64,000 nt of DNA, taken from Peribacillus sp. FSL P2-0133. GTDB lineage: Bacteria > Bacillota > Bacilli > Bacillales > DSM-1321. A program made the translations under genes and the position numbers. The DNA lies in NCBI RefSeq assembly GCF_037975445.1, contig NZ_CP150254.1:4586001-4650000 (forward strand). Direction: 5' to 3'. The notes below the pieces were generated by a model, which did no database searches, was not told the DNA's origin, and saw nothing but the letters and a program-made list of their open reading frames with translations. Shown here in pieces: positions 6,089 through 64,000 of the stretch (its first letter is position 1; each line of letters starts with the position of its first letter).

Positions 6089-6282
6089 TACACATACTCT
6101 CTTTCGGAAATCCACTCCCTTTCCGCACACTGCCTGCCAAGCCTCACCAAAGCAAGCATCTCCGGCGTCTCGGCTAGCCATTTTTTCTAGATTTTTTTTT
6201 GGATTTATCATCTTTTTCCAATATTGATAACTGAGGTGAAAAAGCTTGTTGTTCCTTCACAATAGAAAGGGAATTTCCCCCC

Positions 6283-6336
6283 CAAAAAAATAGACTACTT
6301 CCGTTCGCCCATTTTGCGAATGAAAGTAGTCTATTA
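6283..6336 (-). terminator. Intrinsic terminator of the gntP-scoAB operon
   Basis: On the minus strand AATAGACTACTTTCATTCGC pairs with GCGAACGGAAGTAGTCTATT and is followed by TTTTTTGGGGGG. It lies 28 bases past the scoB stop codon. Confidence 0.9.
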
Positions 6337-6363
6337 ATGAATTATTTTATTAATCTCATTAAC

Positions 6364-7011
6364 TTACGCTCTAATTTCAATAGAGGGGCTTATTTTAAAG
6401 TCAGCCTCTGTTTTACTTTTCACTTCATCAAGTGTTACGCCATTTTGCAATTCAATCAATTCCATGCCTGCTTCTGTAAATTGAAAAACAGCCAGTTCGG
6501 TAATCAGGCAATGGACGACTTTTTCCCCCGTCAAAGGCAATGTACAGCTCTTTTTCACTTTGGATTCCCCATGCTTGTTCACATGGTCCATTATGACAAC
6601 AATTCGTTTTGCGCCTTGGACGAGATCCATCGCCCCTCCCATTCCTTTTACCATCTTCCCTGGAATCATCCAGTTTGCCAAGTCCCCATTCTCGGAAACT
6701 TCCATCCCGCCTAAAATGGCCAGATCGATGTGGCCGCCGCGAATCATCGCGAACGACTCAGCGCTATCAAAAAATGATGCCCCCGATTTTGCCGTTACTG
6801 TTTCTTTTCCTGCATTAATCAAATCCGGATCGACTTCATCTTTTTGTGGATAAGGCCCGATTCCCAGTAAGCCATTTTCCGATTGAAGCATGACATTAAA
6901 GTCATTTGGAATCATGTTGGCAATCAAGGTCGGCATTCCAATCCCTAAATTCACACACATACCATCTTGGATTTCTTTAACAGCCCGTTCTAAAATTAGT
7001 TGTCTAGTCAT
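6364..7011 (-). CDS. scoB: 3-oxoacid CoA-transferase subunit B
   Basis: 215 residues, the usual size for the beta subunit. Family I CoA-transferase signatures are present: GIGMPTLIAN near the N-terminus, SENGLLGIGPYP with the glutamate that forms the enzyme-CoA thioester (Glu in QSENGLLG, about residue 45), and GGHIDLAILGGMEV. With ScoA it transfers CoA from succinyl-CoA to acetoacetate in the cytoplasm. It lies 17 bases after scoA in a permease-scoA-scoB operon, the same order as yxjC-scoA-scoB in B. subtilis. ATG 7011 follows AAAGGAGGAG. Confidence 0.95.
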   Translation of the reverse strand: MTRQLILERAVKEIQDGMCVNLGIGMPTLIANMIPNDFNVMLQSENGLLGIGPYPQKDEVDPDLINAGKETVTAKSGASFFDSAESFAMIRGGHIDLAILGGMEVSENGDLANWMIPGKMVKGMGGAMDLVQGAKRIVVIMDHVNKHGESKVKKSCTLPLTGEKVVHCLITELAVFQFTEAGMELIELQNGVTLDEVKSKTEADFKISPSIEIRA

Positions 7012-7028
7012 TCGAATACTCCTCCTTT

Positions 7029-7724
7029 TTATGCGTTAGCAGTTGTAAGTTTTTCAATTCGTTTTTCATAGTCATTTCCTACAAGCACTTTCTGTACATA
7101 AACCCCTGAAGTATGAATTTCATCTGGATCGAGCTCTCCTGTGCCCACGAGCTCCTCCACTTCGACAAGCGTGACTTTCCCTGCTGTGGCAACGACAGGG
7201 TTAAAATTCCTTGCCGTTTTCCGATATACAAGATTACCGAAATGATCTGCTTTCCAGGCTTTTACAAAGGCAAAATCTCCGACTATTCCTTTTTCCATAA
7301 TGTATGTGCGGCCATCAAAATCTTTATGTTCTTTACCTTTTGCGACTTCCGTTCCTACTCCTGTAGCTGTATAAAAGGCAGGAATTCCCGCTCCGCCCGC
7401 TCTTAAACGCTCGGCCAGCGTTCCTTGAGGAACTAGCTCGACCTCCAGCTCGCCACTTAAAAATTGCTGTTCAAATAACTTATTTTCCCCTACATAAGAA
7501 GCGATCATTTTTTTGATTTGTTTATTTTCAAGCAAAAGACCTAGACCCCAATCGTCGACTCCACAATTGTTGCTGACAATCGTCAAATCCTTTACACCTT
7601 TGTTACGCAAAGCAAAGATTAGTTTTTCTGGTATTCCGCTTAATCCGAATCCGCCAACGATAATGGTTGCTCCATCCTCGATTTGTTGAATAGCGCTATC
7701 AAAAGATGTTAATATTTTACTCAT
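7029..7724 (-). CDS. scoA: 3-oxoacid CoA-transferase subunit A
   Basis: 231 residues with the alpha-subunit signature [19 protein letters not shown] near residue 19, the [12 protein letters not shown] loop, and [22 protein letters not shown]. It pairs with ScoB to activate acetoacetate as acetoacetyl-CoA. The thiolase encoded at 11842-13017 can then split the product to acetyl-CoA. It sits second in the operon that begins at the sigma-54 promoter at 9407-9423. ATG 7724 has GGAGATGATGG upstream. Confidence 0.95.
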
Positions 7725-7756
7725 TTTCCATCATCTCCATTCTTAATACTATTCTA

Positions 7757-9142
7757 TTAAATAAACAGTGAAGTTGCAAAAGCTATGATGAACACGGTCA
7801 CTGTTTTCAAAACCGTAATCGCAAATATATCCTTGTAAGATTGACGATGTGTCAGTCCAGTAATGGCAAGCAAGGTAATGACGGCACCATTATGAGGCAG
7901 CGTATCCATTCCGCCAGATGCCATGGATGCAATTCGATGAAGCATTTCCGGGGTGATTCCGACACTTTGAGCCACCTGCAAATAGTGACTTCCCATTACT
8001 TCTAACGCAATCGAAAGTCCACCTGACGCGGATCCGGTAATCCCTGCCAGCACATTGACGGCGATAGCTTCGGATACGAGTGGATTGCCGCTTGCATCGA
8101 ACACCCAGTTTTGAATGACCGAGAATCCAGGAAGAGTTTTCACCACATTCCCGAAACCAACTTCAGATGCAGTATTGAATATGGCAAGCAATGATCCCAT
8201 TGCCGCAGCTGTTAATCCACTTGCCAATTTGACCTTGATACGTCCAACATTCAGAAGCATCGCTGCAATAATACCGATTGTCAATGCAACAATCAAAGAC
8301 CATGATGAAGTGACTGTGCTTACATCGGCAATGTTGAAAGTTTCCTTCAACATAGATGCATCATACCAGTGCTTAACCGAAATGGCACTCCGGCTGAAAG
8401 CAAAATTAAACGCTACGACAAGGATGAGCGGTACGATGGACAGCCAAAAGTTAGGCAGGTTTTGCTGTTCTGCACTTTCTGGTTCATTAATATGTCCTTC
8501 CCCGTAGCCTTCACCATTTGCCAACGCTTGTTTACGGCGACGCTCTAACCAGAGCATTCCTCCAGTGAATACCATGATCGCGCCAATAATCCCCATTATT
8601 GGAGCTGCATAGGTATCAGTTCCGAAATAATTCGTTGGAATGATATTTTGAATCTGAGGTGTTCCAGGAAGGGCATCCATCGTATAAGTGAAAGCGCCTA
8701 ATGCTATCGTTCCTGGCAATAATCTTTTTGGAATGTCTGCTTCTTTAAAAATTGCCGCTGCAAATGGATAAACGGCGAATGCCACTACAAACAATGAAAC
8801 CCCGCCGTATGTCAGCGCCGAACACGCCAGCACCACAGCAAGAATGGCCTGCTTTGAGCCTAGTGATTTTACGATGGTCTTGGCAATGGATGCAGCTGCA
8901 CCGCTCATCTCCATGACTTTTCCAAATACGGCCCCTAATAAAAATATCGGAAAAAACGCTTTTATATAGTTAGCCGCAAACGTCATATATGTCTCTGTAT
9001 AACTCGGCAGCAAATGTCCACCGGATAGAATGACCGCCAATAAAGTAACAATCGGCGCTATGATAATGACCGGATAGCCCCGGTAGGCTAAAAAGATTAA
9101 AAGTCCCAGCGCCACAACAATGGCTAAAATTTGAATCACCAA
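7757..9142 (-). CDS. GntP-family permease (YxjC-like), probably for 3-hydroxybutyrate or acetoacetate
   Basis: 461 residues, almost entirely hydrophobic, with about twelve membrane segments and the GntP-type GLSIALEVMG and GGMDTLPHNGAVITLL stretches. It is first in the operon with scoA and scoB, which suggests uptake of a short hydroxy or keto acid; the substrate is inferred from context only. The start is TTG 9142 (or GTG 9139) after AAAAGGGGG. The leader between the sigma-54 promoter and this start is about 250 bases long. A frame across it (9390-9136) begins only a few bases after the predicted transcription start, and I do not accept it. Confidence 0.85.
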   Translation of the reverse strand: MVIQILAIVVALGLLIFLAYRGYPVIIIAPIVTLLAVILSGGHLLPSYTETYMTFAANYIKAFFPIFLLGAVFGKVMEMSGAAASIAKTIVKSLGSKQAILAVVLACSALTYGGVSLFVVAFAVYPFAAAIFKEADIPKRLLPGTIALGAFTYTMDALPGTPQIQNIIPTNYFGTDTYAAPIMGIIGAIMVFTGGMLWLERRRKQALANGEGYGEGHINEPESAEQQNLPNFWLSIVPLILVVAFNFAFSRSAISVKHWYDASMLKETFNIADVSTVTSSWSLIVALTIGIIAAMLLNVGRIKVKLASGLTAAAMGSLLAIFNTASEVGFGNVVKTLPGFSVIQNWVFDASGNPLVSEAIAVNVLAGITGSASGGLSIALEVMGSHYLQVAQSVGITPEMLHRIASMASGGMDTLPHNGAVITLLAITGLTHRQSYKDIFAITVLKTVTVFIIAFATSLFI

Positions 9143-9406
9143 CTCAATTCCCCCTTTTCTCCCCTTGCCCCAAAATAATTTCGGAAGCCCTTAAGTAAAA
9201 CTATTAATCTCCTAAATTCCATATTTTCAATTATTCCGCTTTTGCCATCCAAGCCTGCCTTCCCCAAGTCAAGCTGAATGATCTTCCTCAGTGGTTTCCA
9301 ATTATTGAGAACGCTTTCAACAATCTGCTGAATTACGAAATCCCCTTTCATTTTACGTGGAAACACAATATAAAATGACAGATAGGCCATTCACTAAAGT
9401 TAATTA

Positions 9407-46009: not shown

Positions 46010-47209
46010 TTACTCTGCTTGGTTAAGAAGGTATTGTGTAAGGACATTATTATATAATTGTTTCCAAGTGCCTGTATCTTTACCCACTGCATTTGGGTTA
46101 TTACCTAATGTTCGGCTTCTTTCTACAGTATCACCTACAAGGTTCTTACCAATCTCTTCAAAATATTCCATTGGGTCAGCTTTCCAATAGTAAACTCCGT
46201 CTTTTTCAGCAAGTAGTGCACGGAAAGCTCCTACAATAGGATATAAGAAGCCTTTAGGTGTACGGTGTTCCATGTTCTTCTTGTAGAACTTAGATTTAAA
46301 TTTAGTCTCCGATTTTGGGACCTCTACTCCTTTGACACGTCCGTACATGCCTCCATTATTTACTTCACGGTACTTTCTTGCCATGCTAGTTTCAATAAGA
46401 TCATACAATTTAAAAATGTCAGTCATTACATTTTTCATTTTGTAGTAAGGATTATTTTCCACATTATTTTCTTTTTCATACTTATCATAAGCGGTTGTAT
46501 AATCCTTAACACAAGTTTGTTTAGAACTATAAGCACTAACAGCCATTTTTTCACGATTGTCGTGTTTCTCTAAATTGAACATATAAAGCAGTGTTAGGAT
46601 ATCTGCAACATCAATGTCCTTATCTTCATTTTCTCTATATGCTATATTGTCCTTAAACGACTCGCTCTCAATCGCTTCTTTAATCATATTAAACTTCTGT
46701 TTCAGTTCAGCAATAGCTTTATCTTGAACTTGAACTGAGGTATTTCTTGCTGCAGCAACGTCTTCAAAAATGTCTTCAATACCTGTAAGAATTTCAATTC
46801 TAGCATATTGTTTTGTATCTGCACCAAGACTATCACGGTAGTCAAGGATTGTTTTATAGGTGTGTCCACCGTCAACATTTCCGTGAACAGTCTCATCTTC
46901 TATGAAAATAGTTAACTCTGAGTTTGCATTATCAAACTTAACATCTTGGGCTGATAATAAAATACCTCTATTTAATATAAAGAATGGAGAGTGCTCCGAT
47001 AATAAACCATCCTTTATACGTCCAGCAACTTTCGTTCTCATATTTTGCTCACGTGGATTGGTCTTGGTAGGAATGTTATCAGGAAGCTCTCTTATATCTA
47101 CTATTGCAAAGATCATTTCTGGTGCTTTTCTCTTAGTGTCATCCATGAAAATTCCATATGGATTCGGGATTTTTCTTAAACTTTCAACTTTAAATTTAAT
47201 TTTTTGCAT
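46010..47209 (-). CDS. AIPR-family (abortive infection phage resistance) protein
   Basis: 399 residues from ATG 47209, after GAGAGGAG. The AIPR-type core is visible: SPFFILNRGILLSAQDVKFD (about 80-100) and NVDGGHTYKTILDYR (the family's DGGHT/NGCQT motif), then VAAARNTSVQVQDKAIAELK. AIPR proteins occur in phage-defence loci, alone or in larger systems; biochemistry is not settled. It is divergent from an XRE gene with a symmetric site between, suggesting a self-contained regulated unit. It marks the start of the AT-rich defence island. Confidence 0.78.
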   Translation of the reverse strand: MQKIKFKVESLRKIPNPYGIFMDDTKRKAPEMIFAIVDIRELPDNIPTKTNPREQNMRTKVAGRIKDGLLSEHSPFFILNRGILLSAQDVKFDNANSELTIFIEDETVHGNVDGGHTYKTILDYRDSLGADTKQYARIEILTGIEDIFEDVAAARNTSVQVQDKAIAELKQKFNMIKEAIESESFKDNIAYRENEDKDIDVADILTLLYMFNLEKHDNREKMAVSAYSSKQTCVKDYTTAYDKYEKENNVENNPYYKMKNVMTDIFKLYDLIETSMARKYREVNNGGMYGRVKGVEVPKSETKFKSKFYKKNMEHRTPKGFLYPIVGAFRALLAEKDGVYYWKADPMEYFEEIGKNLVGDTVERSRTLGNNPNAVGKDTGTWKQLYNNVLTQYLLNQAE

Positions 47210-47311
47210 TTTACATTCTCCTCTCAAATTTTTTCATTAGCTGACTGCTGAGGGGCAGTAGCCTTGGTAATTGGTAACTAAATACAGTATAAAATGTTCT
47301 CAAAGAAAAAT

Positions 47312-51152: not shown

Positions 51153-52319
51153 CTAATTATTACTTAATTCTCTATATTCTCCCTCTAAAGTCTTAATGAA
51201 ATTTTCATCTCCTATTAGAGTTGTTCGTAACTTTCTATATAATTCAGACTGTAGACCTTGACTACCCGCTTTTCCAAGTTTATCAACTGAAAATTCATCG
51301 CTCTTAATATTTCGGAAAAATTCCTTAAGTTCTTCTCTATTAAATTGTCTATTTTCTACACAGAATTTAATATAAACGTAGTATAAAAGCTTCATTAAAG
51401 CACCAAACCCCGTAGTCTTTAAAAACACATAGTTTTTTCTGTCATCCCATTCATCTTTAAATGTTTGTTTAATAGCTAGATAATAACTTAATAACAACTT
51501 TATTATTTCCTTTTCATCTTTATCTTTCAAAAAAGATTTATAGGTATGGGCTCTTCTATCCTTTATATACCTTAATAGCTCATCAATAAAGGCTGATTGA
51601 GAAATGGACCCTGGCCCACTACCTAACATCCTTATTTCGTTAAAAAACGGTGAAATAGGATTACTATTTAACCATTTTACAATAGAATGGGACCTTTTAA
51701 TTTCATTATATTTATCCTGATTAAATGAGCTTAAATCATACAATAATGATTTATTGACCGGCTTTTGTTTTCCGTTTATTATGCTAAAAATTTCTGCCTG
51801 AAGAGGAATTTCTAAATTTATAAATATCGTTACAACTATTTCAAAATCATCACTTATTTTGTCATTTTCAGTAAAACCGAACGATGCTAATCTATGCTGC
51901 CCGTCTACAATAAATGCATCAATTTTGTCAGGAGATAAGGTTAGTGAAATAATATCATTGTTTTCTGAAATCTCGTATCCATCCATTTCAAAATTATCAT
52001 TTATTTCATCATCAACCCATTTATTATTTATCGAGACAATAATACTATTAGGAAGTATCCCATCTTGGCCAGAGATGTAATCTGCAATTTCCTTTAATCT
52101 GTTGTATTGTAACACCCTTTGAATTCCAGTATCCGATGTGAGGACATTTAATTTTTCTTTCACCTCATGAATATACTTGTTTTCCTTACTTTCCCCACTA
52201 TCTCTCCAATGTAAAGTGGATATTTTTAATAAATCTTTTGCCTTCATTTTCCCTATATAGAATACATTCTGATTTTGTGAAACTTGAAAAAGCTTTAAAT
52301 TTATTTTATTACTAGTCAT
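51153..52319 (-). CDS. DGQHR-domain (DndB-like) protein
   Basis: 388 residues. The signature AFIVDGQHRLASFGF puts DGQHR at 139-143, followed by VVTIFINLEIPLQAEIFSIINGKQKPV (the usual INxxQKxV motif), as in DndB and related proteins that act at DNA-modification or defence loci. The DGQHR fold is related to ParB/Srx-type nucleotide binding. The C-terminal 170 residues are not assigned. It is encoded 11 bases after the membrane coiled-coil gene. No dnd genes are in the window, so it is not a phosphorothioation operon. Confidence 0.82.
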   Translation of the reverse strand: MTSNKINLKLFQVSQNQNVFYIGKMKAKDLLKISTLHWRDSGESKENKYIHEVKEKLNVLTSDTGIQRVLQYNRLKEIADYISGQDGILPNSIIVSINNKWVDDEINDNFEMDGYEISENNDIISLTLSPDKIDAFIVDGQHRLASFGFTENDKISDDFEIVVTIFINLEIPLQAEIFSIINGKQKPVNKSLLYDLSSFNQDKYNEIKRSHSIVKWLNSNPISPFFNEIRMLGSGPGSISQSAFIDELLRYIKDRRAHTYKSFLKDKDEKEIIKLLLSYYLAIKQTFKDEWDDRKNYVFLKTTGFGALMKLLYYVYIKFCVENRQFNREELKEFFRNIKSDEFSVDKLGKAGSQGLQSELYRKLRTTLIGDENFIKTLEGEYRELSNN

Positions 52320-53238: not shown

Positions 53239-53289
53239 GTTAGTTAATTAACTAACAAAAAAATAGTCTTCTCAAATGAGAAGACTATC
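53239..53289 (-). terminator. Terminator of the ATPase-helicase operon, next to an 18-bp palindrome
   Basis: On the minus strand ATAGTCTTCTC, loop ATTT, GAGAAGACTAT, then TTTTTTTG. Adjoining it, GTTAGTTAATTAACTAAC (53239-53256) is a perfect palindrome of 18 bases; it may be part of the end structure or a protein site for the next operon. Confidence 0.8.
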
Positions 53290-53418: not shown

Positions 53419-54351
53419 TCATCCTGTCTTGTTAAAAAGGATAAAATAAATAGATCTTGGGTAGTTCGTAAATTCATAATTCTCACTTATTTCTTTACCA
53501 ACGAAAGAAGATAACTGGAGGTTATCAGAGAAAAAGTTATCAAAAGATTTAACCTTATCAGATGAGTTTCTCCCCCAATAAAATCCACCATCCAGCATTT
53601 GTAACTTTTTGATTTGTGCCATACCAGGTATACTTCCAGCTTTTATTCTATCTTCTCTACCGGTAGGAACTGTTACAACTGAATAATATACTTTATTATC
53701 AATAAATCTTTCAGGATTTTCTTTACTATTACCGATTTCTATATCGAAAACGGAATTAATTTGGTTTCCTTTATAACAAAAATTCCAAAATAAAGGAATT
53801 GCCAACATATCTGAAGCTATTGTCTTTGGAGAAAGTAGTATAACCTTAATTTTATTTAGATCAATTTTACTAAAAAAGTCATTACAAGCTCTTCTGTAAG
53901 TTTCCTTTAAGCTAACTCCTGATAAATCATTGGGAAGAACAACGTCAATATTTTCAGTACCAGTATATTGAACAATTATTATTTCTTTAGACTTACTTAT
54001 CTTCTCACCACTTACTTTAATTTCAAGTGCCCTCTTTAATTGAGGAGGTATCAACTGCATTGAACTAACAGCCCAACAATTAGTACCTAATAAACAAATA
54101 TTTAAATACCAATTAATAAGCTTAGACCAAACATTTCCAGAAACAGAAACCTCACTTTGCCCTCTTTCTGAATCATCCTTAGAAAAAATTGAAGATAATT
54201 CCGTCCCAATACTTAGAATTTTTTGGGGGCTAGGGTAACTGCCTAAGTAATTGGTGATATAATCCTTATATTTAGGCCAGTTATCATTGAAAGATTGGTT
54301 TGAAAAGCATTCCTGTGCACTAATAATGTTTAATATCGAGATAATTTTCAT
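53419..54351 (-). CDS. Protein of unknown function, third gene of the ATPase-helicase operon
   Basis: 310 residues. No signal peptide or membrane helix. SVSGNVWSKLINWYLNICLL with LKRALEIKVSGEKISKSKEI and IIIVQYTG is compatible with an alpha/beta nuclease-like core, but I cannot assign catalytic residues. The ribosome site (GTAGGAGAA) overlaps the helicase stop codon, so it is tightly coupled to the helicase. Its conserved place after a GHKL ATPase and a nuclease-helicase would suggest a restriction or effector subunit; this is inference. Confidence 0.7.
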   Translation of the reverse strand: MKIISILNIISAQECFSNQSFNDNWPKYKDYITNYLGSYPSPQKILSIGTELSSIFSKDDSERGQSEVSVSGNVWSKLINWYLNICLLGTNCWAVSSMQLIPPQLKRALEIKVSGEKISKSKEIIIVQYTGTENIDVVLPNDLSGVSLKETYRRACNDFFSKIDLNKIKVILLSPKTIASDMLAIPLFWNFCYKGNQINSVFDIEIGNSKENPERFIDNKVYYSVVTVPTGREDRIKAGSIPGMAQIKKLQMLDGGFYWGRNSSDKVKSFDNFFSDNLQLSSFVGKEISENYEFTNYPRSIYFILFNKTG

Positions 54352-54362
54352 TTCTAATTCTC

Positions 54363-56021
54363 CTACGGTATGAATAACTCAGTAGTATCATCATAATCTT
54401 CAATTTCAAATTTATCTTTAATAATTGATTCAAAGAACGATTCTGATGTTGTATCGCTGAAGTGAATATCAAAATTATTTAATTCTAGTACTTCTACTCC
54501 AACTTTTTTTTGGTTTTTCCCCTGTTTCGACAAGTTTAATATAGAAGCAACCCTTTTAATATCAGTAACAAAATCAAGTACGGTTACTTTTGTTTTTCCG
54601 GAACTAAGTCTAAGCCCTCTACCTAACTGTTGTAAAAAAATAATTCTACTATGTGTAACTCTTAGAAATACAACTAGATCAACTTCAGGGATATCTATAC
54701 CTTCATTTAGTATATCCACAGCCAGAAGAATATCAATTTTACCTTGTCTAAATTCCCTTAGATATTTTTCTCTGGCCCATGGATCTAAGCCAGAAAATAA
54801 CGCTCTAGCTTTAAATCCATAGCTCACCAAATTTTTTTCCATTTGTTTACAATGGTCAATGCTCGCACAAAAAATTATAGCTCTATTAACCTTTTCCTTT
54901 TTCCAAACATTCTTTATTGTATATATTATTTCATCATCACGTTTAGGTATAAATAATTTCTTGTTTAGGTCTTTAACAGTTAAAGATTTTTGACTGCTAC
55001 TCTCTACAAAATCCCAGTCAATATTGTCTGCAAATATACGGTAATCTACCCTTGAAAGGAAACCGTGCTTCATCCCTTTAATAATGTCCATTGAAAACAA
55101 CGGCTTTCCAAATATTTCAGTAATATCCCTTTCATCCGTTCTAAATGGGGTTGCAGTCATACCTAATAGGAAATCAGGATTTATATGATCAATGACTGTT
55201 TTATACGTATCTGCTCCTGCATGATGACATTCATCAATTATAATAATATTATAATCTTGTAATGGTTTATTAGCTTTTATATGATTAAACACACTTTGAA
55301 AAGTAGCGAGTGTTGTCCCTTCATTAAACATAGGTTTTTCTTTTTCATCCCATAAATGAGTTGCAACACTCTTAGGTAAATGTGGCCATAAGGCCAGATC
55401 GAACTGTTTGATTAAATCATCTTTATTTGCCAAGACTAGCACTTTCATATCACTGTACTTTCGGTATATTTGAGATAAGAATTTTCCAGCAACAAATGTT
55501 TTTCCTAATCCAGTAGCCAAAACCAAGAGAGCTGAGCGGTCTCCTTTATTAAATGCTTGCAGAATGCTATCAAGTGCAAGTGCCTGATATTCTCTCATGT
55601 CATAATCAATCACTGGTTTTAAAGGGAGGTTTTCATATAAATTTAATAACTTTCTCCCCTCTATGAAAGAAATATTATAACCGCTCTTTCGTAAATTATA
55701 TAAAAAATCAAGAGATCCCTTACTTAAGTAACCATTAGTAACCACACAGCCATTACTAATACTATAAAACTCCATAGCGCGCTTTATATCTTCCACAATT
55801 TCTTTCCCTACAGCCCCACCGTTACTCCTAAATTTAACTTGATACACCATCTCATTTTTACCATTAGAAGCAATTACATCTGCTCCATTGTCACCAGAAC
55901 CCCCGATAACAGCTACATGTTCCCATCCTTTGTGTATTAATAACCTACCTAGCGCCCTTTCAAATGCTGACCATGGACCATTATAAAGTCTTTCAGTACC
56001 CAAAAAACCCCATTTATCCAT
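54363..56021 (-). CDS. Fusion of Mrr-like nuclease domain and DEAD-box (superfamily 2) helicase
   Basis: 552 residues from ATG 56021, overlapping the ATPase stop by eight bases (ATGGATAA). Residues about 10-125 resemble an Mrr-type PD-(D/E)XK domain: GDNGADVIAS (Asp48) and VYQVKFRS (Gln61-x-Lys63). Helicase motifs follow: ATGLGKT (169-175), DECHHAG (263-269), GMTATPFRTDE, and the C-terminal ILNEGIDIPEVDLVVF and QQLGRGLRLSSGKT. It should couple ATP hydrolysis to DNA translocation with a nuclease head, as in restriction systems. No methyltransferase is in the same operon; the m5C enzyme at 60066 belongs to another unit. Confidence 0.88.
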   Translation of the reverse strand: MDKWGFLGTERLYNGPWSAFERALGRLLIHKGWEHVAVIGGSGDNGADVIASNGKNEMVYQVKFRSNGGAVGKEIVEDIKRAMEFYSISNGCVVTNGYLSKGSLDFLYNLRKSGYNISFIEGRKLLNLYENLPLKPVIDYDMREYQALALDSILQAFNKGDRSALLVLATGLGKTFVAGKFLSQIYRKYSDMKVLVLANKDDLIKQFDLALWPHLPKSVATHLWDEKEKPMFNEGTTLATFQSVFNHIKANKPLQDYNIIIIDECHHAGADTYKTVIDHINPDFLLGMTATPFRTDERDITEIFGKPLFSMDIIKGMKHGFLSRVDYRIFADNIDWDFVESSSQKSLTVKDLNKKLFIPKRDDEIIYTIKNVWKKEKVNRAIIFCASIDHCKQMEKNLVSYGFKARALFSGLDPWAREKYLREFRQGKIDILLAVDILNEGIDIPEVDLVVFLRVTHSRIIFLQQLGRGLRLSSGKTKVTVLDFVTDIKRVASILNLSKQGKNQKKVGVEVLELNNFDIHFSDTTSESFFESIIKDKFEIEDYDDTTELFIP

Positions 56022-58410
56022 TAAAAGTATTCTCCTCCAATACAATAAGACTTCCTACATTTCTTTTAAACCTTGATATGTTGTTACTCTTCTCTTCGTC
56101 ATTATCTAATATCCAAAGAATATCCGATAGGTAGGAATAGAATTCTTCTGCTATTTCTTCTTTAATTTCATTATCACTAATTTCATTGTACGGTCTCTTC
56201 CAAACGCCACCATCAAAAAACATTTCAGGATTATTTTTAAAGAACTTTATTACGTAATTGTTGGGCATATAAGCTAAAAATTCAGTCGTCTCCAACAACT
56301 GTTGTACCCTACTATCTCCTTCTCCTAATTTGTTTAAAACTGCCCTCTGTAATGATTTCAGATCTTCTTTATCCAACGTAACATTGGTTTGGATTTCCCG
56401 CTTAGTTTTACTTAGGGTCTTTTTTATTTCTGACAACAGCATATTTATTCTTTCTTTTACTGTATCAAGATCTAAAGTATCTTCTTTGCAATAAACATTT
56501 TTAAAATTATAGAAAATTCTAGAAAATGGCCATTCTTCAGGGTCATTCTTCCTCAAGAATAAACTGTTAGATAGCTCCATAAGAATACAGTCCTTAATAC
56601 TGTTACCATGTTTTAAAAACAAAGGTGAATTTTCGTTATAAAAAGCTCGGTAATTGGAGCGGCTAAGTTTCTCCATTACAAGGGGTCTCTCATCATGTAA
56701 AGATGGATCTTCAAATACATCAAGAAGTATTGGCTCTTCTTCTAATTCATCTAATGAATACTGACCACTTAAGCTCTCATTTTTTATAAAACTAGTTTCT
56801 TCATTTTCAACATTATCACTTTGGCCACCTTCGTTATCAAAACCATGATGTTCCTGATCCTGACCATCATTTTCATCATCAACTTTTACAAATGGTTTCT
56901 CTACATCATCACCTTCATCAGTATCTGTCCCATCATTACCATTATTACCATTATTACCATTATTAAAAGGATCAGTCGGATCAAAATTATCATCTTGATT
57001 CCCGTCCCCCAAGCTAGTCCTTCTATTAGCCTCTACTTGTTCGACCAGTTGCCACCATTTATTATCGTTCAGATATTCTGTTTCACCTTTATAAAATAAT
57101 TCTGCCCACGCTTTTGGCTCTGCATTACTACCTTCCCACTTATTTCCCTTTTTACTAAACTTTCCTGGGAGGAGGTCTTCATAACCCGCTTTTTTCCCTT
57201 TTCTGTATCCATTAAATAAACGTGCAATTGGAGTAGTATTTTCAGAATACCCTTTTGTAGCTGCAATATTGGGTCTAATTGGAGCTTCGCCCCTTAAACT
57301 TTTAACTACCATATCCCAATGTTGATCATTTTTTTCAATGCTATCTTTTGTATAAGTAACAGTTAAAAAGTTTGCTTCAAGCTCTCCAACTATTCTACCT
57401 CCCAAGAATGTTGTATCCACTGGGTATTCAAGTTCAAGCTCCCCAGTTTCAGGGTTCTTCCAGCTAAAAAATGATTTATCATTAGCAACAATTAGCCTTC
57501 CATTTCGATAAAAATCCACTCCGTACTTTTCCATATCAAAATATCTCTGGATACCCAACCAACCAGTTATCTTTCTTTCTCTTTTCTTTACATCGTTACT
57601 TGAATCGCAAATACGACAGATATGTGACTCACCTTCAATATGTGGTGCATCTAACCATATCCAGCAATTAGAGCAAAAATATCTATCCCCAAGATCTTCA
57701 TTTATTTCAATATATGAGTAAATCCTTTCACTTTTTCTTATAACATATCTCTCAGGAGACCAAATACATTTTTTGTTGGGGATAAGCTTTTCACCATTTA
57801 TTAATATGTCTATATCATGATCACGTAATAATTTTGAGTAAACCGTACTTAGCTTCTTCCTTAAAGATGCTAATCCTTGTTGCCCTAAATGACTAACCCT
57901 TTCTTTTAATCTATATATCTTTATTGTGGTTCCACTTGTATAAGAATTATCCTTTTTGCGTGTTAATACAGGCCTAACAAAACTGTCACTTTGGGCCATC
58001 TCCGCAAAATCAATCTCTATCCCCACTTCTTCTGTTGCACCTTTGTTAGAACTGTATACTGTCGTTTTTTGACCAAGTCGTGCAGTAGCAATGTTAAATC
58101 CCATACCAAATAAACCTAAATTTGAAACAGGATCATTACTACTAAAACCAGCTTTCAAAGCGTTTTCTAATTGTTCAATATCCATACCAGGTCCATTATC
58201 CCAAACTGTTATTGGAACACCTTCAACAAACTGAGAATGTTTTGGGATATCTACCATAATCTCACCTTTATATTCGCTATTTACTCTAAAGTCTTTTAAT
58301 AGTGCATCTACCGAATTATCTATAAGCTCAGCAATACATTGCCAGTTCTCAAAATCAATCTGTCCAAGCATCTGAAGAATTCTAGGATTGGGAGTTAAAT
58401 TAATATTCAT
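56014..58410 (-). CDS. GHKL (Hsp90-like) ATPase, first gene of a defence operon
   Basis: 798 residues. The Bergerat ATP fold is complete: ELIDNSVDA (28-36), DNGPGM (71-76) and GLFGMGFNIA (99-108). A CxxC-x-CxxC zinc module (CSNCWIW, CRICDSS) lies near 246-272. A low-complexity acidic linker rich in Asp/Asn/Gly (about 467-545) joins a helical C-terminal domain. GHKL ATPases act as ATP-driven clamps or gates; large ones occur in predicted defence loci beside helicases. ATG 58410 follows GGAGGTAAG. Translationally coupled to the nuclease-helicase gene. Confidence 0.85.
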   Translation of the reverse strand: MNINLTPNPRILQMLGQIDFENWQCIAELIDNSVDALLKDFRVNSEYKGEIMVDIPKHSQFVEGVPITVWDNGPGMDIEQLENALKAGFSSNDPVSNLGLFGMGFNIATARLGQKTTVYSSNKGATEEVGIEIDFAEMAQSDSFVRPVLTRKKDNSYTSGTTIKIYRLKERVSHLGQQGLASLRKKLSTVYSKLLRDHDIDILINGEKLIPNKKCIWSPERYVIRKSERIYSYIEINEDLGDRYFCSNCWIWLDAPHIEGESHICRICDSSNDVKKRERKITGWLGIQRYFDMEKYGVDFYRNGRLIVANDKSFFSWKNPETGELELEYPVDTTFLGGRIVGELEANFLTVTYTKDSIEKNDQHWDMVVKSLRGEAPIRPNIAATKGYSENTTPIARLFNGYRKGKKAGYEDLLPGKFSKKGNKWEGSNAEPKAWAELFYKGETEYLNDNKWWQLVEQVEANRRTSLGDGNQDDNFDPTDPFNNGNNGNNGNDGTDTDEGDDVEKPFVKVDDENDGQDQEHHGFDNEGGQSDNVENEETSFIKNESLSGQYSLDELEEEPILLDVFEDPSLHDERPLVMEKLSRSNYRAFYNENSPLFLKHGNSIKDCILMELSNSLFLRKNDPEEWPFSRIFYNFKNVYCKEDTLDLDTVKERINMLLSEIKKTLSKTKREIQTNVTLDKEDLKSLQRAVLNKLGEGDSRVQQLLETTEFLAYMPNNYVIKFFKNNPEMFFDGGVWKRPYNEISDNEIKEEIAEEFYSYLSDILWILDNDEEKSNNISRFKRNVGSLIVLEENTFNG

Positions 58411-58540
58411 ATCTTACCTCCAGTAAAAATTTAAATTGAATTATTATTTCTAATTTTACCATATATTACGTTATGCTCCTAAACCTGGATGAAAGAGCAT
58501 GCAACTTTAGGGGAAAGCCAATTTCCTTAAGAAAAATGCA

Positions 58541-58580
58541 AACCATTAGTATGTTGTTTATATCCAACATACTAATGGTT
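58541..58580. promoter_or_regulatory. Perfect 16-bp inverted repeat upstream of the controller gene
   Basis: AACCATTAGTATGTTG (58541-58556) and CAACATACTAATGGTT (58565-58580) flank an eight-base loop; TTTATATT follows. It lies between the divergent ATPase operon and the controller gene. It may be the controller's operator, an attenuator, or both. Confidence 0.7.
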
Positions 58581-58619
58581 TTTATATTGATAATATATTG
58601 ACAAGAGGTGTTTATCCAA

Positions 58620-58832
58620 ATGAAGTCAATTAGTGTGGAATTCGGAATAAATGTTAAAAACAGGAGATTGGAGTTAGGTATGAGTCAACAAAAACTAGCT
58701 GAAGAATGTGATTTTGATAGAGGTACCATTGTTTTGATAGAAAAGGGACAATCTAATTCAACTTTAAATACGATTTCAACCCTTGCTGACGTATTAGACG
58801 TGCACCCATCCGACTTATTAAAAACTGATTAA
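58620..58832 (+). CDS. Controller (C) protein, XRE family, of a restriction-modification set
   Basis: 70 residues from ATG 58620 (GTG 58608 lies within the ribosome site AAGAGGTG). Helix-turn-helix: MSQQKLAEECDFDRGTIVLI, then EKGQSNSTLNTISTLADVL. It is encoded 18 bases before the endonuclease gene, the usual C-R order, and delays endonuclease synthesis until DNA is methylated. Confidence 0.88.
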   Translation: MKSISVEFGINVKNRRLELGMSQQKLAEECDFDRGTIVLIEKGQSNSTLNTISTLADVLDVHPSDLLKTD

Positions 58833-58850
58833 TTATAAGGAGAATATAGC

Positions 58851-60053
58851 ATGACAAACCTTTTTAGAAATTCAACCCAAATTGAAGATGTTTTTTGTAA
58901 AGTGTTAGCACCAAATGATGATAGCGGAAGACATGGTGTTTTAATCCCCGTTTTTGCATACCGCATGTTCCCAAATTTCAATGGTTTCCAGCCTAACTCA
59001 AAAATGAATTATGAAGAAACCATTGTGACATATTGGCAAGAAGACACTGGCTTCATTGCAAAACAAAGTAAATGGAAACACTACCATAGGTATCCTGAGA
59101 GAAGAATGACAAGTCTTTCTCCAAAATTTATGAATAATAAGATAGAGGGTTCTTTACTTATTGTTGGTAAATATAAGGATAGTTTTGAATACGAGTGTTT
59201 CGTAATTGCTCCAAATAATTCAATCTACAGTGTAGTTGGGGATATCTTCAAATTAAGTAAAAAGGATGATCAATTTACCGGTTCAGCGATTTTACCAATG
59301 GAAGAAATTCTGAATGGAACAAGAAACAATGAGGCATTAGAAGAGCTTATCTGCATGTTAAAAGGAATCAACGCTCGAGGGTTTATTGAAACAATGAAAA
59401 ATGGCGATACTGGAGTAGGCTTTACATTTGAAGCATTAATTGGTATAAGAGCAAACTCTGGAAAAGATCCTGATTATAAAGGCATTGAAGTAAAGTGTTC
59501 AAGATCCAAACAACCTAAGGACAAGAGAAAGGCATCGTCAGGAAAGCAGACATTATTCTCACTCGTACCCAAATGGAGTATTGTTGGTAGTAGGCGGGGG
59601 TTAATAGAGCAGTATGGTCATATTGATGAGGAGAGAGAACGAATTGGGCTATACTGTACAATTAAAATCGTTCCTAATTCATATTTGTGGCACCTTGAAA
59701 TTTCTGAACCTAATCAAAGGATTTATATTTGTCAGAATGGAACAAGAGTTATATTTTACGAAATGGAAGATTTGCGTTCTGCATTAGAAAGTAAGCATAA
59801 AGAAAGCTTTTTTGTAACTGCGCACGCAAGAAAGAATGTAGCTGGTAACGAAGAATTTCATTATGACTCCGCCGTTCACTGTAACCTAGTTTCATTTGAC
59901 GAATTTTTAAGGTTAATCAAAGAAAACCTCGCAGGATTAGATTTTGCTATACATTTAAAGAACGGAAAAGTGCGGGATCATGGATTTCTTTGGAGACTGG
60001 AAAATCGAAAATATCTATTAAGATTATTTAACAGTGTACAAGAGGTTTTATAA
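58851..60053 (+). CDS. Type II restriction endonuclease, MvaI/BcnI family
   Basis: 400 residues. The C-terminal half has the family signature NGDTGVGFTFEALIGIRANS followed by DYKGIEVKCSR, giving Asp208 and Glu213-x-Lys215 as the likely active site. MvaI and BcnI cut CCWGG and CCSGG; an m5C methyltransferase beside it fits such a target. The N-terminal 170 residues (RMFPNFNGFQPNSKMNYEET) may help recognise DNA. ATG 58851 follows AAGGAG. Controller upstream, methyltransferase converging. Confidence 0.88.
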   Translation: MTNLFRNSTQIEDVFCKVLAPNDDSGRHGVLIPVFAYRMFPNFNGFQPNSKMNYEETIVTYWQEDTGFIAKQSKWKHYHRYPERRMTSLSPKFMNNKIEGSLLIVGKYKDSFEYECFVIAPNNSIYSVVGDIFKLSKKDDQFTGSAILPMEEILNGTRNNEALEELICMLKGINARGFIETMKNGDTGVGFTFEALIGIRANSGKDPDYKGIEVKCSRSKQPKDKRKASSGKQTLFSLVPKWSIVGSRRGLIEQYGHIDEERERIGLYCTIKIVPNSYLWHLEISEPNQRIYICQNGTRVIFYEMEDLRSALESKHKESFFVTAHARKNVAGNEEFHYDSAVHCNLVSFDEFLRLIKENLAGLDFAIHLKNGKVRDHGFLWRLENRKYLLRLFNSVQEVL

Positions 60054-60054
60054 A

Positions 60055-60094
60055 AAAAGCGCGCCTTATTGATTGACAAGGCGTGCTTCTTTTG
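60055..60094. terminator. Bidirectional terminator between endonuclease and methyltransferase
   Basis: AAGCGCGCCTT pairs with AAGGCGTGCTT, with A and T runs on both sides. The right arm lies within the last codons of the methyltransferase. Confidence 0.82.
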
Positions 60095-61484
60095 TATTGT
60101 TATCTTTAATTTCCATTTGTAAATTGTTGTTATTTATTGCTTCTTTAACTTTAAGTGCCACCGCTTTAGCTAATAATGGTGGTACTGCATTTCCAACTTG
60201 TGTATATTGAGGAACTTCAACCCTTCTCCTTGGTCCGCCAGTTGTCCTTTTACCCTCGAAAAAGAAGCTATCATCGAACGATTGCAAGCGAGCTAACTCA
60301 CGTACAGTAGGGATACGATTTTCAAATGGATTTATAAAATCATCTGGTAATGTAACTACTGTTGGTGCTGCCGTGTTTGGGTCATATTTTAATCTATTTC
60401 CTTTTTTAGATAATAGTAACTTTAAGATATCTTCTGTTATTGTCCCGCTCTGAATTTCTTGAACAAAAGACTCGAAGTTATCATATTCATTTTGGTTATT
60501 GAAACAGTACTCAAGTAAGTTAGGGCTACTTAATCGTATAAGTGGTTCCCCTTCCCTTTTAATTCTACTAATAAGCGCTGGAGTATTCTCACCATCATTA
60601 TATAACTTAAACCTCTCAACAACCAAAGTACTATGCTTTGAGGTCTGGTGATTATATTGTTCCCCCTCGTGGGCGATAGGGTTTCCAAATTCAATTGTGT
60701 TTCGGTCAGCATATATTATTGTTGGCGTTCGTCCTTGGATCGATGAAATTTGGTAATCCGTACCAATCGGGTTTATTTCTTGCCTTCGTTGATTATCAAT
60801 TATTAAATCTCCTATTGCATCCTGTACAGTAAGATCTCGAACATCATTTATTTCCGGATACTCTGGAGGTGTTAATCCATTACGGTAAGCAATAAAGATT
60901 ACTCGTCTTCTCTTTTGCGGTACCCCATAATTCGAGGCATCTAAAACTGTTGTAGGCAATACTGAATATCCAATTTCACTTAATTCGTTTTCCAATATGT
61001 CTGTAACTAAGCTATCATCGGGGTAAACTTTTTCAGTAACACCAATAAATTGGTCTAGTTTCGTATAAAGGAACCCTTCAACATTCTCCATTACAACGTA
61101 TTTAGGTTGAATTTCATTTATTATCCTTAAATATTGTCCAAACAACATATTTCTTGGGTCGTTCCTTCTCCGTCTTCCTGCAAGGCTAAAACCTTGGCAA
61201 GGAGGTCCGCCAAAAATGGCATCAATATTAGGGATTTCGTGCCCCTGAAAAATAGTTAAGTTTTGGATTGCCTGATATATAAAATCTCGGTTTAAATCCG
61301 AAATATCTCCTCGATGGAAGAAGGTATTTTCGCCTTGGATTAAACCTAATTGTTCATGTCGTTGCGTGTAAGTTCTTTCAACATCTTCGCTAATATCACT
61401 AGAAAACAATATGTGGAAACCAGCTTGTATCAAACCTTCACTCATTCCTCCAGCACCACAAAACAAATCTATAGCGTTTGGCAA
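60066..61484 (-). CDS. DNA (cytosine-5) methyltransferase
   Basis: 472 residues, started at TTG 61484, six bases after GGGGGG. m5C motifs: DLFCGAGGMSEGL (6-18, SAM binding), GGPPCQGFS (92-100, catalytic Cys96), ENVEGF (133-138), QKRRRVIFIA (motif VIII), and the closing QVGNAVPPLLAKA (motif X). The variable target region lies at about 230-400. It should protect the sites cut by the MvaI-like enzyme. It could instead serve a DISARM-type system, but the convergent endonuclease makes type II likelier. Confidence 0.94.
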   Translation of the reverse strand: MPNAIDLFCGAGGMSEGLIQAGFHILFSSDISEDVERTYTQRHEQLGLIQGENTFFHRGDISDLNRDFIYQAIQNLTIFQGHEIPNIDAIFGGPPCQGFSLAGRRRRNDPRNMLFGQYLRIINEIQPKYVVMENVEGFLYTKLDQFIGVTEKVYPDDSLVTDILENELSEIGYSVLPTTVLDASNYGVPQKRRRVIFIAYRNGLTPPEYPEINDVRDLTVQDAIGDLIIDNQRRQEINPIGTDYQISSIQGRTPTIIYADRNTIEFGNPIAHEGEQYNHQTSKHSTLVVERFKLYNDGENTPALISRIKREGEPLIRLSSPNLLEYCFNNQNEYDNFESFVQEIQSGTITEDILKLLLSKKGNRLKYDPNTAAPTVVTLPDDFINPFENRIPTVRELARLQSFDDSFFFEGKRTTGGPRRRVEVPQYTQVGNAVPPLLAKAVALKVKEAINNNNLQMEIKDNNTKEARLVNQ

Positions 61485-62434: not shown

Positions 62435-64000
62435 TTAAAGAAGTTCGTATACATTTGGTAAATCAAATTTAATCTCGTATGGTGAATAATAACGAATGCT
62501 ATTAATAGCTAACTTTTTCTCAATATTATTTTTTAAACCAATCAAATTTCCATCGATAAGCTGAATGAAAACATTCCCATTTTCTTCTATTATATGTGAG
62601 TAATTCTCACCATGATGCAAATCGTATGCAGCTTTAACAGGTTTTAAATATTGAATTTGTTCTTCTCGCGTATATTTTGTAAGTTCTCCTTTAACTAAAT
62701 ATGTTAAAAGTTCCAGACCAAGTGGACGATTCAAATGTTCATGTTTCATTTGATTCTGGTAATTGCGTAAGCACTTGTAACAAGATGATTCACAAGCATT
62801 TATACAATGGCTTAGTACATTAAATGTCTCATTAATAATTTCTTTAATACGCATTCCTGCTACATAGGAATATCCTGCACCACCAGATAAAGTGTCAAAT
62901 AAGTATAAATCAGCATAACTTTCGCCTTGTTCATTATGAACAATCCTATAACCTACTGTCAATTCCTGAGCATCAATATCTAATACCCTGCTAGCCGCTA
63001 ATACAAGACCTTCTCCTAACGTTAATAAAGCATCATGTAACCATTGTTTGTTAGCATTGAAGTCTATGTGATCGTCCATATTTAAACGGATTAAAAATAA
63101 ATCTGATGTAAATTTATTACCCAGATAAATTTGATGTAAGTTACCAGAACATTTATTCTCAATCATCCCTTGACGTTGGAATGGTTTATAGTGCCCTTTA
63201 AATAAATCGTCATTTTTAATGACAGGCTTGATAAATCCGCAATCCTCACACATAAAGAAGCCACTTTCTCCATCAATGCCTCTATTCATTACAATAAGTT
63301 CTTCATCTTCTCTGTGTTCGTATTTAATAAAACCAAGACTATTTAAAGTTTTAAAATCAAACTTAACTTTTTCATTCGGTACAGGTAACTGTGGAGTACT
63401 AGCAAAGCTGTATTCTTGTGTAAAATCACCTTTAGGTACCTCTTTACCCTTTTCAGGTGAAAAGCCGGTAGGACAAATGTAAGGCATTGATTTGAGTTCC
63501 TCTTTACAGTTTGGACATTTCTCAGCTGCTTTACTTGCTATTTCTGTATAATTGCATTTCACACATAGGGCCACATGTTCCCCATGTAAATTCAGATCTT
63601 GAGCTGGTGCTTCAGGATTTTTAGAAAATGGATTATAAATACCACCTATACGATAAGTCTTCTTGTTTATTACAATTTGTCGCCCTGGTGCATATTCACC
63701 TAAAGCACGGTTTAATGCTAGTTGTGGTCTTTGTTCCATAATTACTTTGTTTTTCTTATCACGACCTTGAATATAAAGACTTGTTAAATCTTTAGGGAAT
63801 GCATAGGTCGGTAAGAAACCATGATTAAATAAAAAGTTTAATAGCAATTCATCTGGATGCTGCTCTGTAAATTGATCATCTTCCTCGATTAATCCTTCAT
63901 ACTCCATTAATTCTTTTTCAATTTCACAGAAAGCATCATCTAAATCTTGCCCTATATTGTCAGAAGCTTCTTTAATAAGTGACCATTTGTCCCCCTCATT
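62435..64000 (-). CDS. DUF1998-domain protein, C-terminal part (DrmB-like or helicase C-terminus), partial
   Basis: The frame is open through base 64000, so the N-terminus is off the window; 521 residues are visible. Zinc modules: CVKCNYTEIASKAAEKCPNC and CEDCGFIKP. The DUF1998 core follows: DLYLFDTLSGGAGYSYVAG and CESSCYKCLRNYQNQMKHEH with LNRPLGLELLTYL. DUF1998 occurs in DISARM DrmB and at the C-terminus of DEAD-box helicases such as MrfA. No helicase motif is seen in the visible part. An ATG at 63907 has no ribosome site and is not the start. The function depends on what lies beyond the edge. Confidence 0.82.
   Translation of the reverse strand, partial: NEGDKWSLIKEASDNIGQDLDDAFCEIEKELMEYEGLIEEDDQFTEQHPDELLLNFLFNHGFLPTYAFPKDLTSLYIQGRDKKNKVIMEQRPQLALNRALGEYAPGRQIVINKKTYRIGGIYNPFSKNPEAPAQDLNLHGEHVALCVKCNYTEIASKAAEKCPNCKEELKSMPYICPTGFSPEKGKEVPKGDFTQEYSFASTPQLPVPNEKVKFDFKTLNSLGFIKYEHREDEELIVMNRGIDGESGFFMCEDCGFIKPVIKNDDLFKGHYKPFQRQGMIENKCSGNLHQIYLGNKFTSDLFLIRLNMDDHIDFNANKQWLHDALLTLGEGLVLAASRVLDIDAQELTVGYRIVHNEQGESYADLYLFDTLSGGAGYSYVAGMRIKEIINETFNVLSHCINACESSCYKCLRNYQNQMKHEHLNRPLGLELLTYLVKGELTKYTREEQIQYLKPVKAAYDLHHGENYSHIIEENGNVFIQLIDGNLIGLKNNIEKKLAINSIRYYSPYEIKFDLPNVYELL

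Follow-up and report, generated by a model that had tools for sequence, protein, structure and literature searches.

A prokaryotic MORC operon of Peribacillus with a PfoI-like, probably disarmed restriction enzyme as its third gene

We analyzed a 64,000-nucleotide stretch of DNA (the window) from the 5.8-Mb single-contig genome of Peribacillus sp. FSL P2-0133 (contig NZ_CP150254.1, positions 4,586,001 to 4,650,000), in which three minus-strand genes encode a GHKL ATPase of the MORC type (P0003), an Mrr-like nuclease fused to a superfamily 2 (SF2) helicase (P0002), and a third protein (P0001). This operon belongs to a larger restriction-modification (R-M) cluster that also contains a C5 cytosine DNA methyltransferase, an MvaI-type restriction endonuclease (P0005), and a regulator. 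On balance, we favor the reading that the cluster is a presumably antiviral, ATP-dependent R-M system of the prokaryotic MORC class, with a type II restriction enzyme devoid of its active site as the third subunit. The class as such was already described computationally in 2008, and the third protein is its new part.

The third protein and its active site

P0001 yielded no match at an E value of ≤0.1 in Pfam, PADLOC, or NCBIfam, which bears out the original prediction, made from the sequence alone, that it is the most novel part of the operon. As the sole query, it had no match in plasmids, phages, viral contigs, or the genome_contigs collection, nor in 298 other genomes of the order and 35 other genomes of the genus. 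The protein became interpretable only via a homologue beside the MORC-helicase pair of locus L058, the single homologue found in that slot among the 111 loci examined. The original prediction had also raised the question of a nuclease core. The closest match to the structure model of P0001 was the restriction enzyme PfoI, and the fold is that of the CCGG family.

The catalytic residues of PfoI are E113, E167xD169, and K187 (PMC6344858). In four intact relatives of P0001 (P0021, P0022, P0023, and P0025), an E lies in WE(A/G)L and is followed by ESD and then by QCK, whereas P0001 carries at the matching positions WSKL, either KEI or SKE depending on the alignment, and SPK. Two acidic residues are therefore lost in both alignments, one of them the catalytic E, which is replaced by S; the third is lost or changed to E, and lysine alone is kept from the acidic-residues-plus-lysine set of the family. 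Immediately after this lysine, TNWND of the intact relatives reads TIASD in P0001. Recognition residues of the R-(D/E)R type are also missing from P0001, and PfoI itself departs from this motif (PMC6344858). Other positions are kept, including WYLN, IPxxW, VTVPT, and GGxYWG. P0001 differs from PfoI in having no detectable sequence match to it, in lacking the helix E and the ExD, and in not conserving the recognition residues R-x-K-E of PfoI.

These data indicated that P0001 is distantly related to PfoI-like restriction enzymes of the CCGG family and has probably no nuclease activity. Judged by the aligned residues, the loss of cutting is well supported, and since the catalytic residues are replaced, we class P0001 as a relative and not as an active member of the family. 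By analogy, the E167A variant of PfoI shows no detectable cleavage and still binds DNA (dissociation constant, 10 nM versus 1) (PMC6344858).

The MORC-helicase pair and its third slot

By its GHKL motifs together with its S5-domain motif, P0003 is a prokaryotic MORC. It matches HATPase_c_3 of Pfam at 3e-14 and carries the ATP-binding motifs ELIDNSVD, DNGPGM, and GMGFN, and GVDFYRNGRLI in its S5 domain fits GhXhhpXXRhl, the motif that defines prokaryotic MORCs in Iyer et al. 2008 (PMC2292703). Cysteine pairs of a zinc module, a long acidic linker, and a C-terminal domain can be read from its translation, and P0002 combines Mrr_cat (1e-15), ResIII (3e-35), and Helicase_C (6e-20) in a single protein, so both genes were correctly described in the original prediction. 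That no known class was matched did not hold: the first operon type of Iyer, Abhiman, and Aravind, described from sequence alone, consists of a MORC and a Rad25-like SF2 helicase that commonly carries a fused restriction-fold DNase, with C5 methylases and Vsr frequent in the neighborhoods (PMC2292703). Our cluster shares with it the MORC motif, the SF2 helicase with a fused restriction-fold DNase in the operon, and a C5 methylase nearby. It differs in having a disarmed type II enzyme as the putative third subunit, of which the accessible part of that description has none; nor was one found in the open-licence PMC literature on MORC or paraMORC and restriction, as judged by titles and the beginnings of abstracts.

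To survey the class, we used P0003 as the query for plasmids and a MORC alignment for two contig collections, and examined 111 loci (L025 to L135). They were picked by similarity to P0003 (the best 80 of 315 in genome_contigs), and the fractions given here are not general frequencies. A MORC match of >100 bits was present in 101 loci and absent from 10, and the helicase gene adjoins the MORC gene in 97 of the 101; among the other four, L043 and L116 stop at the MORC gene, the helicase of L108 was missed by the offset rule, and L029 has none annotated. All 97 helicases carry Walker A and DExH motifs as well as the Mrr motif D.G.D...[QE]xK in a widened pattern (80/97 with a narrower one, since frames ran stop to stop), and the MORC motif expression matches 97/101 relatives, missing L034, L035, L036, and L038. 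Clustering at 90% identity reduced the helicases to 71 clusters, the window copy standing outside these. An iterated profile detected a C5 methyltransferase no more than 8 kb away in 69 of the 71, L068 and L125 being the exceptions (the first profile had found it in 76/94 loci), and a Vsr-like gene lies within 9 kb in 46. Searching 397 genomes of the order with P0003 gave 22 matches at an E value of ≤0.001, strong only in its own genome and in genome G286 (2e-68; next, 5e-10). Thus, the MORC system appears to be rare in the order.

Whether the three genes stay together had been proposed as a check: the ATPase-helicase pair does, whereas the third gene varies, its slot being filled by different proteins by lineage. 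Directly after the helicase, a family of small proteins that we call t3 occurs in 48 clusters (50 with L052 and L062 corrected), an MvaI-type protein in 3, and a P0001 homologue in 1, with the contig ending there in 3 more.

The MvaI-type slot proteins come from Ruegeria (L042), Agrobacterium (L065), and Anaerolineaceae (L073), i.e., from two phyla. None of the three keeps any of the four catalytic residues, whereas all four are kept in 15/15 MvaI-type proteins outside the slot, P0005 included (Fisher's test, 0.0012, a guide only, with related sequences treated as independent). Eleven of these controls derive from all 10 viral loci (L149 has two) and three from 16 plasmid records, P0005 being the last; some are near-duplicates, and L157 and L158 look alike. 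At L042, L065, and L073, the Mrr domain is the sole intact cutting nuclease recognized by eye and by profiles, except for a Vsr-like gene in L042. Since the slot proteins are disarmed and Mrr is the only recognized cutter, we reasoned that the third protein would recognize the DNA and Mrr would cut it, which is our main argument. The best reading is that the third slot accepts disarmed type II enzymes as putative target-recognition subunits.

The t3 proteins are about 190 amino acids long (e.g., L045, 14040 to 14636, with 44 aligned relatives) and share G49 and K67 in all 45 aligned members. Three members lacked a PADLOC match and had only weak, sub-cutoff Pfam matches. A confident model (predicted local distance difference test [pLDDT], 96) shows in its C-terminal half a loose resemblance to EndoMS/XisH nuclease folds, with no conserved acidic residues.

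Proposed mechanism and rival explanations

Computation established which genes and families are present, how often they recur, and that P0001 is homologous to restriction enzymes and carries the substitutions described; the mechanism that we propose goes beyond this. In it, the C5 methyltransferase would mark the host's own sites for self-protection, and the disarmed PfoI-like P0001, kept for DNA recognition, would locate unmethylated copies of that site. P0001 would then load the MORC ATPase, which, as its family suggests, may form a dimeric clamp closing on DNA, together with the SF2 helicase, which may translocate at the expense of ATP. Cleavage would fall to the Mrr domain on the helicase, the sole intact cutting domain recognized in the operon. 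P0005, preceded by the C-protein-like regulator, would serve as a conventional second cutter, and the same methyltransferase would plausibly protect the host against it. Enzymes of the MvaI/UbaLAI type read CC(N)GG-type sites, CCWGG in the case of MvaI. Sites of PfoI and its CCGG-family relatives are CCGG or CCNGG (PMC6344858). Since both families favor CC(N)GG-type sites, one methyltransferase could protect against both.

A precedent for an R-protein and an ATPase acting as one complex is provided by the CglI/NgoAVII systems, which also comprise a methyltransferase, an R-protein, and a DEAD-family ATPase; their R and N proteins assemble into one complex, and site-specific cutting needs ATP hydrolysis (PMC4267653). 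Unlike our cluster, they include no MORC in the accessible part of that account, and the R-protein cuts there, whereas the R-like protein here seems disarmed and the nuclease sits on the helicase.

A broader proposal, possible though perhaps short of probable, is that MORC-Mrr-helicase machines repeatedly recruit type II enzymes, deprive them of their active sites, and employ them as exchangeable specificity subunits, so that type II parts would make up an ATP-dependent machine resembling Type I; t3 would be a third case. Bacterial MORCs and the gene-silencing MORC ATPases of eukaryotes are related, and the disarmed-enzyme reading bears on how the bacterial proteins act on DNA. If a disarmed restriction enzyme supplies the MORC target site, the site becomes predictable and the machine testable in vitro. 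A specificity subunit arising from a cutting enzyme would then mean that type II systems can give rise to ATP-dependent restriction, with a modular slot filled by unrelated proteins across lineages.

Several observations weigh against a disarmed recognition subunit. The P0001 model is of low confidence (pLDDT, 54; predicted template modeling score, 0.66), plain Foldseek with it gave no match at an E value of ≤0.001, and a profile search of PDB sequences gave none up to an E value of 10, so PfoI is not detectable by sequence. In one alignment, E123 takes the place of the catalytic D, which is a conservative change. Of the 71 columns that do not vary among the four intact relatives, P0001 retains 37. 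Among those missing is the NWN that follows the lysine, close to the site-reading region of PfoI; these losses could mean decay instead of reuse. DNA binding by P0001 is not assured, as the PfoI variants E113A and D169A bind specific DNA about 100-fold less well (PMC6344858). The L058 slot homologue keeps its active site, so that in the PfoI-like family the loss is seen in a single case out of two. The MvaI-type proteins in the slot of L042, L065, and L073 are related, two of them sharing 51% and 41% identity with the first, and may reflect one event, and the MORC gene of L065 is split into two open reading frames. Finally, the slot holds no recognized third gene in 16/71 clusters (14 once L052 and L062 are counted as t3), and the MORC-helicase pair may therefore recognize targets by itself.

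One rival explanation is a stack of ordinary R-M genes, in which P0005 and the C5 methyltransferase restrict, the PfoI-like P0001 is a replaced, decaying relic, and the MORC-helicase pair is a separate accessory. The methyltransferase shares 55% identity with methylases adjacent to intact P0001 relatives and at most 32% with those in the ten top-scoring rows of MORC loci, so a PfoI-like enzyme was plausibly its original partner; an intact MvaI-type enzyme adjoins, and P0001 is without 34 of the 71 family-invariant residues. We nevertheless regard the relic as unlikely, since P0001 is still a full-length open reading frame with its own overlapping ribosome site in the operon, its WYLN, IPxxW, VTVPT, and GGxYWG are retained, and disarmed enzymes occupy the same slot at L042, L065, and L073 in two phyla.

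Alternatively, the target might be read by the MORC C-terminal domain, the third protein being a regulator or inhibitor that, for example, restrains the Mrr nuclease until infection. The 14 to 16 of 71 clusters without a recognized third gene and a MORC with a long linker and an unassigned C-terminal domain speak for this arrangement, but it appears quite improbable given that the slot holds relatives of two restriction-enzyme families reading related sites (CCGG/CCNGG and, for MvaI, CCWGG), which points to DNA recognition. P0001 could also still be an active enzyme with a rearranged active site, as permuted in PfoI: K176 and D181 are kept, E123 can be aligned with the catalytic D, the L058 homologue is intact, and catalytic residues are permuted among CCGG-family enzymes (PMC6344858). 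This is distinctly improbable, as neither alignment retains the helix E or the first E of ExD, and loss of that E in PfoI (E167A) leaves no detectable cleavage (PMC6344858).

Operon layout, neighboring genes, and related systems

The features of the cluster, which spans 8.1 kb (53419 to 61484), are collected in Table 1. As originally described, the ATPase stop and the helicase ATG overlap by eight bases (ATGGATAA), and the ribosome site of the third gene, TAGGAGAA, contains the TAG stop of the helicase; an alternative TTG start 24 bases upstream of the helicase ATG is also open. The claim of a terminator behind the operon stands in part: an inverted repeat with a T-run on the minus strand can be read by eye, but it was not listed by the terminator scan, which gave no clear terminator excess (6 versus 4.6 expected). 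The scan recorded another hairpin at 58540 to 58581, in the gap that separates the MORC operon from the C-protein gene; its stem has 17 pairs, and it was listed as terminator-like for either strand.

Table 1. Features of the R-M cluster in the window
Feature	Position	Strand	Details
Possible operon terminator, read by eye	53263-53288	not set	11-bp inverted repeat by A/T run
Third-protein gene (P0001)	54351 to 53419	minus	310 amino acids; full-length open reading frame
Mrr-SF2 helicase gene (P0002)	56021 to 54363	minus	552 amino acids counted from ATG; overlaps MORC gene
MORC ATPase gene (P0003)	58410 to 56014	minus	798 amino acids; open reading frame
C-protein-like helix-turn-helix regulator	58608-58832	plus	74 amino acids; HTH_3 5e-12; PADLOC Control_protein 3e-13
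UbaLAI/MvaI-type restriction endonuclease (P0005)	58851-60053	plus	400 amino acids; MvaI_BcnI 5e-42
C5 cytosine DNA methyltransferase	60066-61484	minus	472 amino acids; TTG start; DNA_methylase 9e-58

The operon had been thought to lack a methyltransferase of its own. This proved wrong, as the C5 methyltransferase, the MvaI/BcnI-family enzyme, and the C-protein-like gene lie immediately upstream. The regulator gene precedes that of P0005, which is divergently transcribed and outside the three-gene operon. P0005 combines a UbaLAI N-domain (5e-12 against PDB sequences) with an MvaI catalytic domain (R.MvaI, 3e-5), and its active site E..D..ExK is intact.

The defense-island setting was confirmed, and Druantia type I genes lie beside the R-M cluster. 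DruE (1,762 amino acids; PADLOC DruE1, E value of 0), DruD, DruC, and DruB adjoin the methyltransferase from 62435 to 63907 onwards (L145, 2435 to 12093), and what reads as a 490-amino-acid open reading frame in the window is DruE truncated by the window edge. On the other side, a DGQHR-domain (DndB/DpdB-like) gene lies at 51153 to 52319, with no other Dnd or Dpd gene evident among the few neighbors scanned, and an AIPR family gene (PF10592, 1e-30) lies at 46010 to 47227, with no PADLOC match at an E value of ≤1e-10.

Assignment of the operon to Type I R-M, Druantia, Zorya, or MZA was rejected, as PADLOC matches were only partial or generic among those listed: against PADLOC-DB 2.0.0, P0003 matched MzaB weakly (8e-4) and P0002 generic restriction and helicase models (among the 25 of 46 matches listed). 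P0003 was also rejected as a paraMORC3/Shedu protein (VcSduA, PMC12137116), having no DUF4263 match at an E value of ≤0.1. HEF_HK/paraMORC-like genes are similar in that GHKL HATPase_c_3 genes lie near type II R-M genes, with C5 methylases and MvaI_BcnI domains nearby; those genes are histidine-kinase-like with response-regulator-like partners, which were not seen in our operon (PMC8011034). In the archaeal locus L030 (Methanoregula; 6266 to 9402), a second GHKL/histidine-kinase-like protein and a response-regulator-like protein, identified by eye, lie between the methylase and the MORC gene and resemble these pairs (PMC8011034).

In Bacteroidota MORC loci, an open reading frame of about 100 amino acids lies between the methyltransferase and MORC genes (L031, 9679 to 9984; similar in L032, L034, L036, and L038), and that of L031 resembles by eye a SANT or helix-turn-helix DNA-binding protein. 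MutY/MIG-like glycosylases were recognized by eye in L058 (14953 to 15618), L031 (14091 to 14753), L039 (13938 to 14585), L065 (7746 to 8459), and L073 (9256 to 9975). The glycosylase in some MORC loci and Vsr in others are perhaps two routes to the repair of deaminated 5-methylcytosine.
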